Positions 25,727 through 38,537 of a stretch of DNA of 64,000 bases are shown in pieces. The stretch spans positions 1-64,000 of the forward strand of contig JACRBC010000129.1 in assembly GCA_016213245.1 (NCBI GenBank). The letters run 5' to 3'. Each line of letters opens with the position of its first letter. Position 1 is the first letter of the stretch. The notes beneath the pieces are model-generated. The model searched no databases, was not told the DNA's origin, and saw nothing but the letters and a program-made list of their open reading frames with translations. This DNA comes from Candidatus Solibacter usitatus (GTDB taxonomy: Bacteria; Acidobacteriota; Terriglobia; Bryobacterales; Bryobacteraceae). Made by a program: the position numbers and the translations under genes.

Positions 25727-26185
25727 TCAGGGCCGGATCTCAACCGGCAGTTCCAGCTTGACCGTCTTTGGCGGCAGGCAGATCCTGTTGTCGCAGGCCT
25801 GGTAACGCGCATGGACAGCCAGCGTTGCCGGGCCTGCTTTTGCGTTCCTGGACACCTCCACCGGCACGCCGAACCCGGCGCTGCCCTCGTAGGACTCGAT
25901 GTCGAGCTGGAAGGTCTCTTCAAAGCGGCTCAACGGCGGCGGCGCGTCGATCTCGCCCGCCCGCCCGAACGGCTGCCCCTCGGGCACCGTGATGGAGGTC
26001 GGAATCGGTCCCCCCTCCTGCTTCTTCAGCGAGTAGAGGTGCCAGCCCTCGGCGATCTCGGCCGCCAGCGTCACCGTGAACTTCCCGCCCGGCTGGACTT
26101 GCGTCTTCGCCGCCGGCGCGGTGATGGACCACTGGACCGGAGGCGTCTGCCAGAGTAGCGCGAGGAGCAGCGTCAGGACCGGCAC
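25727..26185 (-). CDS. Stand-alone DsbD N-terminal-like periplasmic domain
   Basis: Signal peptide; AEGWHLYSLKKQEGGPIPTSI and ARYQACDNRICLPPKTVKLELPVEI match the DsbD N-terminal pattern. Confidence 0.8.
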   Translation of the reverse strand: MPVLTLLLALLWQTPPVQWSITAPAAKTQVQPGGKFTVTLAAEIAEGWHLYSLKKQEGGPIPTSITVPEGQPFGRAGEIDAPPPLSRFEETFQLDIESYEGSAGFGVPVEVSRNAKAGPATLAVHARYQACDNRICLPPKTVKLELPVEIRP

Positions 26186-26188
26186 CGG

Positions 26189-27778
26189 TTACCTCCGCGG
26201 CGCGTCCGCCCAGGCCGCTTGCAGAATCGCCTTCGACTTTGCGTCCTGCACCAAGGCCACCACGGCCAGATCCGCCGCGTCGATCGACGACAGGTGCTCC
26301 ATGAATCGGAACTTGCCGTCCTTGTTGTGGCGCTCGTCGTGCTTCTCGAAGTCCACCAGGTGCTGATTCAGCGCCGCGGCGACCGCGGCCAGGTTGAACG
26401 TCTGCGTCTCGGACTTTTCCTTGGCCTCGCCCAGCGGGAAGCTGGACAGCGACCGCACCACCATCGGGTGGAAGCGGATGCCGTTCTCGCCGGAGTAGCG
26501 CAGCTCCTTCTCCACCAGCGCGATGTGCAATACCAGGTCCGGTGAAGGCTTGGTCACGTTGGACACGCCGGCGCGCGCCACCACCTCGCGCCCGTCGTTG
26601 GCCGCGCTGAGCGTGAGCGAGGCGCCCGGCGCCGTCTCCAGGCCCTTCTCGATCATCGGCCGGATGCGGCTCTCCACCTCGCCGGCGTACTCGCGCGGCC
26701 CGCCGCCGCCGGGCGGCGCAATGCCGTCGATGGCGTAGGTCGGTACGCCCCGCCCCGCCTGGAACTTCCAGCGGGCTACCGTGTCGGCGTTGCTCATCGG
26801 GTCCGGCCGGGGGATGTGCTCGTGGTACATCACCACGGCCAGCTCGGCTCGGCCGTAACGCTCCAGCGCGGCCTCAAAGGCGAGGTCCGCGGCCACGCAC
26901 GGCCCGCAGCCGGCGCCTGTGTAGACCTCGGCCAGCACCAGCCTGCCGCTGCGCGCCGCCGTCTTCTGATACGGCGTGGCGTGCAGCGGGTTGGGAAAGA
27001 TCGCCTTGTAGCGCTCGTCCAGGAACTCCGGCTCGCCCTGCACCGAACCGTGGACCTTCTTCCAGGCCTCGGAGAAGCGGGCGCGCGACTCCGGACTGGG
27101 CCGCGCCAGCATTCCCTGAGCGTAGTAGTTCAACGCCTCCTTCGGCTTGCCGGCCTTCGATTGGATGTCGCCCAGGGACATTGCGGCCGTGCTGAGCGTC
27201 GGGTTGTCCCGCAGGGCTGCTGTGAAGACCTTCTTCGCCTGGCCATTGTTGCCTCTGGCCAGCAGGACCCGCCCCAGCGTCTCTTGCATCTGCGCACGCT
27301 GCGAGGCGAAGCGGCTCCGGACTTGTGCTTCGGTCGGCGCCGGTCGCTTGAGTTCTTCGGCGTCTTTCCTCGCCCGTGCGGCGGAGTCCTCCTCGGCGAG
27401 ACGCTTCAAAGCGGTCTTGGCCGACCGCTCGGCCTCCTTCAGCAGTTGATTGGCGTCAAGCAGCTCGACAGCGAGAAATCGATGCAATTCTGCGGCCGAA
27501 CTGGAGGACAAGCCCTTCGCCATGGCCCGCGTGCGCGTCACCGCATCGGCCGGCTTCAACTTCACCGCGGCGGCAATGATTTCGCGGCGCGCCGGCTCCA
27601 CCCTGTTGCTGGAGGGAAAATCCTCGATGAACTGGTCCAGCGCGGCCAGCTTCTTGTCCGCCTCTTTGAGAGCCACGGCCGCCATGAAGGCCTTCGAATC
27701 GGCAGGCTGGGCCGGCTTGGCGGCCTCCTGCGCGAGCACCGGCAGGGCCACGAGGCAAGCGATCAGAAGTCGCACCAT
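26189..27778 (-). CDS. Exported TPR protein with C-terminal thioredoxin-like CGPC domain
   Basis: Signal MVRLLIACLVALPVLA; TPR-like helices; LAEVYTGAGCGPCVAADLAFE. Confidence 0.8.
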   Translation of the reverse strand: MVRLLIACLVALPVLAQEAAKPAQPADSKAFMAAVALKEADKKLAALDQFIEDFPSSNRVEPARREIIAAAVKLKPADAVTRTRAMAKGLSSSSAAELHRFLAVELLDANQLLKEAERSAKTALKRLAEEDSAARARKDAEELKRPAPTEAQVRSRFASQRAQMQETLGRVLLARGNNGQAKKVFTAALRDNPTLSTAAMSLGDIQSKAGKPKEALNYYAQGMLARPSPESRARFSEAWKKVHGSVQGEPEFLDERYKAIFPNPLHATPYQKTAARSGRLVLAEVYTGAGCGPCVAADLAFEAALERYGRAELAVVMYHEHIPRPDPMSNADTVARWKFQAGRGVPTYAIDGIAPPGGGGPREYAGEVESRIRPMIEKGLETAPGASLTLSAANDGREVVARAGVSNVTKPSPDLVLHIALVEKELRYSGENGIRFHPMVVRSLSSFPLGEAKEKSETQTFNLAAVAAALNQHLVDFEKHDERHNKDGKFRFMEHLSSIDAADLAVVALVQDAKSKAILQAAWADAPRR

Positions 27779-27807
27779 GCGCACATTGTATGCGATTGAA
27801 CCGCGGC

Positions 27808-28284
27808 TCACCGCCGCGGATACTGCGTCACCACTTCGCGGCCGAGAAGATGGTCGAGGTGGTGCCGCATGTGGAGGATATAGTCGTCGATGAGGAACCC
27901 CAGCGTCACCGGCGCGCCGGCGCCGACCGTGCAGGAGGTGCCGGACTTCTCCTCGGGGATGCGGGCCACCAGGTGCGCCAGCAGCAGGTTGTAGCGGTAC
28001 CAGAACTCGACCAACTCCGCCCACGGCAGGGCGGCGTAGCCATGAAGCCGCACCCAGTCGTCCTGGGCGTAGCCTGGACCGCGGTAGTCGGCTTCGAGCG
28101 CCGCGCGCACGAAACGCTGGTGGTTGTTGGCGGCCGAGTCGATCAGGTGTCCGAGTTCTTCCTTGGGCGACCACCCTTCCGGCTGTGGCTGCTGAGCAGC
28201 AGACATTGCATCGCTCAGGGAGAGCAGAGCGGCGTGTTCCTGCTCGACCGCTTGACGTAGCTGATTGGCCAGGCTCCCGATCAT
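27808..28284 (-). CDS. DinB-superfamily protein
   Basis: WSPKEELGHLIDSAANNHQRFV and DDYILHMRHHLDHLLG metal-binding histidines. Confidence 0.85.
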   Translation of the reverse strand: MIGSLANQLRQAVEQEHAALLSLSDAMSAAQQPQPEGWSPKEELGHLIDSAANNHQRFVRAALEADYRGPGYAQDDWVRLHGYAALPWAELVEFWYRYNLLLAHLVARIPEEKSGTSCTVGAGAPVTLGFLIDDYILHMRHHLDHLLGREVVTQYPRR

Positions 28285-35823: not shown

Positions 35824-36105
35824 ATGGAAGCCCTCGGCATGATCGAGACGAAGGGTCTGATCGGCGCGATTGAAGCGGCCGATGCGATGGTGAAGACCGC
35901 CAACGTGACGCTCACCGGTAAAGAGTATGTCGGCGCGGCGTATGTGGTAGTGACGGTTCGCGGCGATGTGGGCGCCGTTAAGGCGGCCACCGATGCGGGC
36001 GCGGCCGCGGCGCGGCGCGTGGGCGAACTGATTGCGGTACACGTGATCCCCAACCCTCACGAGGAGACCGAGAAAGTACTGCCGGCGCCGAAGAAGAACG
36101 GCTAA
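35824..36105 (+). CDS. Bacterial microcompartment hexameric shell protein (BMC-H)
   Basis: [26 protein letters not shown] and [40 protein letters not shown] upstream. Confidence 0.96.
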
Positions 36106-36205: not shown

Positions 36206-38029
36206 ATGCTGCACGATCAGGACCTTGTCTCGGTTCAGGAAGTCCGGACAAAGGTGGACCAGGCGTATGCCGCCTGGCAGGCGTACAGGAATTTCACGCA
36301 GGAACAGATTGACGCCATAGTGGAGGCCGTGGCCGCGAAGGGGAGAGCGCACGCCCGGCGCCTGGCCGAGATGGCCGTGGAAGAGACGGGCATGGGCAAC
36401 GCGGCGGACAAGTACATGAAGAACATGCTGACGTCGGACCTGCTCACGCGCTCGATTCGCGGGGTCAAGACGATCGGCGTGCTGCGCGAGATTCCGGAGC
36501 AGCGGGTGACCGAGATCGGCGTGGGACAGGGCGTGGTGGCGGCGATCTGCCCGACGACGAACCCGACATCGACGGTTTACTTTAAAACCATCATTTCGCT
36601 CAAAGCCGGCAACGCGGTGGTGCTCAGTCCTCATCCTCGGGCCAAGGGCTGCACCTGCGCGGCGGCGGCGCTGATGGCGGAGGCGGCGGCCGAGGCCGGA
36701 GCTCCGGCCGGCATCGTGCAGTGCCTGGGCAGCTCCACGCTGGAAGGCACGCAGGCCCTGATGAAGCACCCGAAGGTGGGAGTGATCCTGGCCACGGGCG
36801 GGGCGGGCATGGTGCGGGCGGCGTATTCGTCGGGCAAGCCGGCGTACGGCGTGGGGCCGGGGAACGTACCGATCCTGCTGGACGCCTCGGCCGACATCGC
36901 CGAGGCGGTGGGCCGGATCGTGGATGGCAAGTCGTTCGACTTCGGCACGGTGTGTTCGAGCGAACAGACGGTGGTGGCCGAGCGGCACCTGCGGGAGCAG
37001 ATTCTGGCGCAGTTCAAGGCGCAGAAGTCGTACATGCTGAGCGACGAACAGCGCAAGGCGGTGGAGCGAACGCTGTTTTCGGGCGGCACGACGGTGCGGT
37101 CCGAGTGCGTTGGCAAGTCGCCCCAGAAGATCGCCGAACTGGCGGGTTTCAGCGTGCCGGAGGATATCCGCATACTGCTGGCCGAGATCGGCGGGGTGGG
37201 CAAGGAGCACCCGCTTTCGGCGGAGAAGCTCTCGCCGGTACTGGCGATCCTCTTTGCGGACGGTTTTGAGGCATGCATGGACGTCTGCGAGTCGATTCTG
37301 CGATTCGGCGGGCTGGGCCACACCAGCGTGATCCACGCCAAGGACGAAGGGAAGGTGCGGCGCTTCGGGTTGCGGATGCCGTCGTTCCGGGTGCTGGTGA
37401 ACACGGCCTCGCCGGCCGGTTCGGTGGGTATCACGACCGGCTTGCAGCCGTCGATGACGCTCGGTTGCGGGGCGATGGCGGGCAACGTTACATCGGACAA
37501 CGTGGGTCCGCTGCACCTGGTCAACATCAAGCGGGTGGCCTGGGCCATCCGTTCGCCGGAAGAGGCTATGCCATCGACTCCGGCGCCGGCATCTGGCGCT
37601 GCTATCGACAAGGCGCAACTGGTGGCCGCTGTGGAGCGGTACCTGGCGCAGAAGGGGATGACGGTGGGCGGCGGCAGCACGGCTCCGCCGCCGGCGTCAG
37701 CACCGGAGCCTCCCACGCGCGAGACGATTGCGGGCGTGGTAGACCGCTTCCTGGCGGTGAAGAAACCGGCGGAGGCGGCCACCCCGGGCCCTTCGTGCGG
37801 CTGCAGCGTGAAGACGGCTGAGCCGCAGCCGGAAACGGCCAGGCCGGAAGCGCGCAAGGCGGAGATCCCTGCTCCGGCGGTCGAGATCGCCGACTTTGTC
37901 TGCGAGGCCGACGTGCGGGCGGCGATCAATCAGAACAGAAAGATCTTCATCGGGCCCAAGACGATTGTGACGCCGTCGGCGCTGGAACTGTCCGGGCGGG
38001 ACGAGATCCTGGTCCGGGCGGAGCGCTAG
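36206..38029 (+). CDS. BMC-associated acylating aldehyde dehydrogenase with about 155-aa C-terminal extension
   Basis: PTTNPTSTVYFKTIISLKAGNAVVLSPHPRA, GPGNVPILLDASADI, FDFGTVCSSEQTVVAE (catalytic Cys), GLGHTSVIHA; EutE/PduP-type. Confidence 0.93.
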   Translation: MLHDQDLVSVQEVRTKVDQAYAAWQAYRNFTQEQIDAIVEAVAAKGRAHARRLAEMAVEETGMGNAADKYMKNMLTSDLLTRSIRGVKTIGVLREIPEQRVTEIGVGQGVVAAICPTTNPTSTVYFKTIISLKAGNAVVLSPHPRAKGCTCAAAALMAEAAAEAGAPAGIVQCLGSSTLEGTQALMKHPKVGVILATGGAGMVRAAYSSGKPAYGVGPGNVPILLDASADIAEAVGRIVDGKSFDFGTVCSSEQTVVAERHLREQILAQFKAQKSYMLSDEQRKAVERTLFSGGTTVRSECVGKSPQKIAELAGFSVPEDIRILLAEIGGVGKEHPLSAEKLSPVLAILFADGFEACMDVCESILRFGGLGHTSVIHAKDEGKVRRFGLRMPSFRVLVNTASPAGSVGITTGLQPSMTLGCGAMAGNVTSDNVGPLHLVNIKRVAWAIRSPEEAMPSTPAPASGAAIDKAQLVAAVERYLAQKGMTVGGGSTAPPPASAPEPPTRETIAGVVDRFLAVKKPAEAATPGPSCGCSVKTAEPQPETARPEARKAEIPAPAVEIADFVCEADVRAAINQNRKIFIGPKTIVTPSALELSGRDEILVRAER

Positions 38030-38048: not shown

Positions 38049-38537
38049 ATGAGACCCAACCTCGATTCCCTCGCCGAAGAGATCCAGCAGCACCTTGAGG
38101 CGGAGCACTTCATCATCTTCCACTCGATGAGCCGGGTGATGGAAGACGGGCCGCTCGTGCATTGGGACACGACGCGGCAGGCGGATTACCGCCGGTTCCT
38201 GGAGTGCGCGCTGCAACTGGGTGTGCGGCTGATCCACTTCCACTCGCGCGAGTTCCGGGCGCAGCATCGCGAGGAGGCGCTCGGCCTGCTGGAGGAAGCC
38301 GAGGTGGCGCGCGACGACAAGCGGGCGCTGGAGCGGCGGATCAAGGAACTGGCCATCTACGAGGGCTTTACCTGCGCAATCGAGCTGAGCTTCGACTTCG
38401 AGGGGCGGGTCTACGTCTTCGAGGTCCAGACCGAGTGGTACGACGAATGGCATGACATCCTCGATGAACTCGAGGATGCGGCCCCGGATGAACCGGAAGA
38501 CGGCGCGGGTTACGGCGGCTTCTACTCCAACAACTGA
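38049..38537 (+). CDS. Hypothetical protein
   Basis: 162-aa ORF tightly packed between AldDH and recJ; acidic C-terminus. Confidence 0.7.
   Translation: MRPNLDSLAEEIQQHLEAEHFIIFHSMSRVMEDGPLVHWDTTRQADYRRFLECALQLGVRLIHFHSREFRAQHREEALGLLEEAEVARDDKRALERRIKELAIYEGFTCAIELSFDFEGRVYVFEVQTEWYDEWHDILDELEDAAPDEPEDGAGYGGFYSNN

Follow-up and report, generated by a model that had tools for sequence, protein, structure and literature searches.

A conserved tail on an aldehyde dehydrogenase of ACI-type microcompartments as a probable link between enzyme core and shell, with a putative selenocysteine form in one Bryobacteraceae clade

Introduction

The acylating aldehyde dehydrogenase (AldDH) encoded next to a microcompartment shell gene in an acidobacterial genome continues past its catalytic domain into a tail that is real and conserved, and in which two helices resembling encapsulation peptides (EPs), a cysteine segment and a small folded module follow one another. 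The tail probably works as a combined core-linker and shell-anchor arm of an ACI-type bacterial microcompartment (BMC), with a thiol or selenol site in it and with an in-frame UGA of one related clade read through as a likely selenocysteine (Sec).

The gene, its neighbours and its compartment

The window, meaning the whole stretch of 64,000 nucleotides that was analysed (contig C99), belongs to an acidobacterial MAG (G000) of 3.83 Mb that is 79% complete and belongs to the Bryobacterales, its closest named relatives among those found being Bryobacterales, Bryobacteraceae and Paludibaculum MAGs. Here the AldDH gene (36206..38029, + strand; 607 aa) lies directly downstream of a gene for a 93-aa BMC-H shell protein (35824..36105, +; PF00936, E 6.6e-27), and the third gene of this satellite locus (38049..38537, +) encodes a conserved 162-aa protein with no Pfam or NCBIfam match. 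The order BMC-H, AldDH, 162-aa gene recurs: BMC-H is directly 5' of AldDH in all 45 ortholog loci with room for it, the 162-aa gene adjoins AldDH in 45 of 48 ortholog loci, and in 11 of 13 genomes it is present as a single copy at that place. Two loci labelled Acidimicrobiia (L054) and Arcobacter (L059) hold clearly Bryobacterales-type AldDH genes and are probably mis-binned MAG contigs. Elsewhere in the window the GC skew flips near 27 kb (26000-28000) from strongly negative to positive, as it does near a replication origin.

The best match of the AldDH domain is TIGR02518 (residues 4-458, 541.6 bits), and since this is below the equivalog cut-off of 620.1 the enzyme is assigned to the TIGR02518-type family with no claim to the equivalog. 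Membership of this acylating family together with a C-terminal extension characterises the type I BMC AldDhs, and the window AldDH has both. Its top Foldseek matches are 5j7i and 3k9d. The residue C250 (codon 36953..36955, +; FDFGTVCSSEQ) is invariant in 44 aligned sequences and is presumably the catalytic Cys, as in the AldDH family.

The main BMC locus of the genome (L117) is on another contig, C142, and comprises a class II aldolase (L117:10971-11777; PF00596, E 1.3e-44) ending in an EP-like helix, RIEVTREELISLVEQALRARGLA, with one BMC-H and three BMC-P, the three PF03319 matches and the one PF00936 match falling within 1.2 kb. The ACI-type BMC, as set out in the ACI description of Sutter et al. 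2021 (PMC8217296), has an aldolase bearing a C-terminal EP, three BMC-P genes and an AldDh encoded at a satellite locus, and all of these are present here, the AldDH being on C99 with one BMC-H and the main locus on C142. The same description places ACI mainly in acidobacterial subdivisions 4 and 6 (PMC8217296). The hydroxyacid dehydrogenase that also belongs to ACI loci was not recognised among the ORFs of L117, the one locus read for it. The Bryobacterales lineage belongs to subdivision 3. The window locus fits the known ACI type, with the subdivision and the hydroxyacid dehydrogenase not fully matching. Genes for BMC-T are on C7 and C21, and on C7 (L119) a two-domain BMC-T gene adjoins one for an RnfC/SLBB/4Fe-4S protein resembling PduS, so that electron transfer through the shell is possible.

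Organisation and conservation of the tail

A preliminary description of this DNA had the protein run on for about 155 residues beyond the normal AldDH end, through two helices, the sequence GPSCGCSVK and a terminal module, and the 607-aa ORF reads just so. TIGR02518 ends at residue 458; helix 1 occupies residues 467-484 (IDKAQLVAAVERYLAQKG; 37604..37657, +), helix 2 residues 504-520 (TRETIAGVVDRFLAVKK; 37715..37765, +), the CxC segment GPSCGCSVK residues 528-536 (C531 and C533; 37787..37813, +), between helix 2 and the module, and the 45-aa module, a presumed shell anchor, residues 563-607 (DFVCEADVR...RAER; 37892..38026, +). The last 157 aa have no Pfam or NCBIfam family match. AlphaFold gives the full AldDH a mean pLDDT of 84, with the linkers disordered (pLDDT below 50), the CxC segment within a disordered linker and the module at about 90; helices are predicted at 469-482 and, with low confidence, at 508-518.

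The tail is no frame artefact, a doubt raised along with the preliminary description, because it is found in 49 of 61 relatives (reaching to class level), in 137 of 237 family genomes and at about 45 further MAG loci. Misassembly is likewise ruled out by the conservation in the 137 family genomes. The order helix, helix, Cys, module recurs among orthologs, and of these parts the module is the best conserved and the Cys the one whose place and presence vary. Motifs of the CxC and CxxxC kind recur with no fixed place or spacing, in L178 the CxC sits between the helices and not 3' of helix 2, and in L180 and L191 the tail linker is without any Cys, which makes the thiol site dispensable. One species (L157/L189) has three tail helices.

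The likeness of the two helices to EPs was part of the preliminary description, and their amphipathicity is clear for the conserved cores averaged over orthologs and not for the single helices of the window taken whole. Averaged over orthologs (consensus IDRAAVVAAVERYLAQRG for helix 1, from 79 distinct orthologs, and ASVAAEVVDRFLARR for helix 2, from 74), the 11-residue cores have a moment of 0.46-0.49, with p about 0.01 for helix 1 and 0.02-0.05 for helix 2; the window helices taken whole are no better than shuffles. By the same measure the terminal helices of a WOR-3 AldDH and of the ACI aldolase are no better than shuffles either, and so the test has little power. EPs are amphipathic alpha-helices of 15-20 aa that sit at a terminus of the cargo protein on a flexible linker, and the predicted helices here are on a disordered linker, internal to the tail, and amphipathic only as ortholog-averaged cores. 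As candidate EPs they fit in position, and fit the single homologous helix of the WOR-3 AldDH, their amphipathicity being moderate. A C-terminal EP is ascribed to type I BMC AldDhs (PMC8217296).

The C-terminal module and its likeness to EutQ

Predicted alone, the module folds as beta-alpha-beta-alpha-beta with a pLDDT of 90.6. A profile built from 93 ortholog modules and run against 20,179 ORFs matches the N-terminus of E. coli EutQ (E=0.017), and hhalign aligns the module with EutQ residues 5-40 (P 2.3e-5, probability 76%), which bears out the resemblance to the EutQ N-terminus given in the preliminary description, the match being weak at 24% identity over 34 columns. Residues 9-41 of EutQ (H1/H2) associate with the Eut shell, and residues 62-99 (H3/H4) with the EPs of cargo (Yang et al. 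2025, PMC12487888). Since the matched segment is the shell-binding H1/H2, there is direct experimental precedent for the earlier suggestion of a tail that could scaffold both shell and core. By homology, then, the module would be a shell anchor. A PDB sequence search with the module returned unrelated weak matches only, Foldseek returned nothing below E 1.6, as expected for 45 residues, and the C-terminal cupin domain of EutQ (PF06249) has no match in the window AldDH.

The module is also carried by other BMC-type enzymes. In a WOR-3 locus its profile matches PduL at the C-terminus (E 8.6e-8 and 1.4e-6), and the neighbouring AldDH there has one C-terminal helix. Part of it (GTIFTPSARDLA) forms the N-terminus of an RpiB-type sugar-phosphate isomerase in the window's own genome (L203, on C150) and in relatives (L204, L205), and two class II aldolases of relatives (L206 and L207, in G006 and G255) start with the module and end in an EP-like helix. 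Occurring thus at the C-terminus of PduL and the N-termini of RpiB and aldolase, it counts as a portable module of BMCs. The WOR-3 fusions of module to PduL are at L085:2421 and L097:9454; PduL was not found in the window genome, 79% complete.

An in-frame UGA in one clade

The window AldDH is a Cys form, its GPSCGCSVK lying in the interval, between helix 2 and the module, that holds a UGA in one clade of the family. Exactly one in-frame UGA occurs in the tail in 25 family genomes of 12 genera, at one conserved place between helix 2 and the module (GG[YF]x-UGA-CUG, and GG[YF][SGT]-UGA-L-[TAS] in most rows), and these rows form a single clade (support 100/99). TAA or TAG is never at that place, such codons being confined to the extreme end of one module (L143) and to one weak match outside the UGA set (G203). 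The module 3' of the UGA has a pN/pS of 0.26 versus 0.33 in Cys-form genes, so that purifying selection on it is no weaker than on theirs. A pseudogene lesion is ruled out by the single clade, the lack of drift to TAA or TAG at the place and the selection downstream. In one species (L173, genome G216) of a genus of the UGA clade, g81, the UGA motif has been lost and the shortened linker has no Cys.

Initiation after the UGA is not conserved, because L156, L162 and L165 have no in-frame start codon within 87 nt of it and the only such start of L160, as of L169, falls at or inside the module. All 25 distinct sequences have CTG as the codon following the UGA, a figure inflated by relatedness, and CTG makes up 58% of the Leu codons of the same genes.

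Selenocysteine machinery, as at least one of SelA, SelB and tRNA-Sec, is present in 24 of the 25 UGA genomes. SelB passes a threshold of E 1e-60 in 23; G178 has no SelB match among those listed and has SelA and tRNA-Sec, and in G110 (91% complete, locus L159) none of the three was found. The sister genome G109 has SelB and tRNA-Sec, G110 being an incomplete MAG or a case of recent loss. SelB is present in 188 of 237 family genomes, and the window genome has SelA, SelB and tRNA-Sec; co-occurrence of this common trait with the UGA is consequently weak evidence. A bSECIS after the UGA was sought in the 25 UGA rows, where folding energy has no significant excess (mean z +0.27) and bSECIS-like hairpins of at least 5 bp occur in 14 of 25 against 11.3 +/- 2.3 expected, which is not significant. 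The model does not cover every known bSECIS element (PMC13188914). The clade has what is looked for in a selenoprotein by way of the in-frame UGA, the coding sequence kept up beyond it and the homologs with Cys, and the genomic markers go with these in the proportion just given. The UGA is probably read as selenocysteine, and if it is translated through then selenocysteine is likely the residue inserted.

A tethering arm and its alternatives

In the mechanism that we favour, the EP-like helices, two or sometimes three of them along a flexible Pro/Ala linker, would bind other cargo and so gather the enzyme core, and the folded C-terminal module would bind the inner face of the shell, as EutQ H1/H2 does in the Eut compartment. 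Were the module to bind the shell in that manner, the core enzyme would itself do the core-to-shell tethering that elsewhere is done by a separate EutQ. Between helices and module would stand the thiol site, a CxC in the window, and in the one Bryobacteraceae clade a UGA read through there, most probably as Sec, may place next to the shell anchor a site that is redox-active or binds metal; through its thiol or selenol the tether's state could then be sensed or fixed. A bolder form of this proposal, which we put forward tentatively, is that the UGA form of the Bryobacteraceae makes up a new family of selenoproteins and the first in a BMC, that its tail Sec pairs with a tail Cys as a redox switch or crosslink controlling the tie of core to shell, and that the EutQ-type anchor is a general, portable module of BMC enzymes.

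It is unlikely that the whole tail is simply a long C-terminal encapsulation signal, its parts redundant targeting sequence and its EutQ-like piece without any special shell-binding role. The C-terminal EP of type I BMC AldDhs (PMC8217296) would make such a signal unsurprising, as would the low complexity of a linker with AF2 pLDDT below 50, and the homologous WOR-3 AldDH makes do with a single helix, its chain lacking the module. However the module is the best-conserved part of the tail, folds alone and recurs on PduL, RpiB and aldolase, none of which a generic signal need do. Also to be weighed is metal: the CxC or Sec site may bind a metal or an iron-sulphur cluster, or act in catalysis by taking the acyl group from the active-site Cys, rather than serve assembly or redox sensing. 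The recurrence of CxC and CxxxC motifs, the electron-carrier-like RnfC/SLBB-type protein encoded with a BMC-T gene in the genome and the strong nucleophilicity of Sec all speak for it, but the motif varies in place and spacing, is absent from some orthologs and is put by AF2 in a disordered linker, and we regard this reading as improbable.

As to the UGA, it could be a genuine or leaky stop at which most of the protein ends, the module being made sparsely by readthrough or from an internal start and the ratio of anchored to free enzyme being set in this way. The base after the UGA is always C, which is a weak termination context, and CUG follows in every one of the 25 sequences (against 58% of the Leu codons in these genes); the lack of a significant SECIS signal and a G110 devoid of detectable Sec machinery also speak for this reading. 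Yet ordinary stops would drift to TAA or TAG, which never occur at that place, some rows have no in-frame start before the module, Cys-form orthologs are single continuous proteins and nearly all UGA genomes have Sec machinery, so a stop seems distinctly unlikely.

Relation to known systems

AldDh cargo, EPs, ACI compartments and the EutQ shell anchor are already known. In the literature searched, no EutQ-type anchor fused to tandem EP-like helices on one enzyme was found, nor the spread of the anchor over PduL, RpiB and aldolase, nor a UGA in a BMC cargo tail, although the new-selenoprotein papers of Haft and colleagues, outside that search, could list the family. Nothing found there joined selenocysteine with acidobacterial BMCs, and the one paper found on selenocysteine, BMC and aldehyde dehydrogenase together concerns an acetogen genome; the main texts of the selenoprotein reviews PMC13188914 and PMC9312934 have no mention of an aldehyde dehydrogenase or a microcompartment protein.

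With the ACI BMC, as its description in PMC8217296 gives it, the present system shares an acidobacterial host, an aldolase with a C-terminal EP-like helix, a BMC-P triplet and a BMC-H in one locus, and a satellite AldDh; it differs in belonging to the Bryobacterales where ACI is mainly of subdivisions 4 and 6, and in having no hydroxyacid dehydrogenase seen beside the main locus. We found no mention of an elaborate AldDh tail or a UGA in that ACI description. Type I BMC AldDHs of the TIGR02518 kind, such as the WOR-3 AldDH (L085/L097), are of the same catalytic family (about 46% identity) and have a KKFLKERG-like C-terminal helix, but in WOR-3 the helix is single and the module is on the neighbouring PduL and not on the AldDH.

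The UGA clade resembles bacterial selenoproteins with Cys homologs in its one in-frame UGA, the conserved sequence after it, the Cys orthologs and the genomic Sec machinery, and differs from them in having no clear bSECIS and in placing the UGA in a disordered assembly tail, outside any known redox fold. Should the UGA encode selenocysteine, BMC biology would gain selenium chemistry, and gain it in a disordered docking tail, a place for which none is reported in the literature searched. In practice, standard gene callers would cut the AldDHs of this clade at the UGA.

Another close parallel is EutQ (PMC12487888), whose residues 5-40 (H1/H2) align with the module, whose flexible linker likewise parts shell-binding from cargo-binding, and for which a role in joining core and shell is likewise predicted. 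In contrast to EutQ, the module here extends an enzyme at its C-terminus, and a cupin domain is missing; where EutQ has the EP-binding H3/H4 the tail has EP-like helices, with a CxC or UGA site in between. The EutQ N-terminus has been described as purely helical, while for the module beta strands are predicted too. An anchor fused to a core enzyme suggests how BMCs without EutQ could tie core to shell, and a candidate anchor of 45 aa, well folded and portable, may be usable for loading cargo into synthetic shells.
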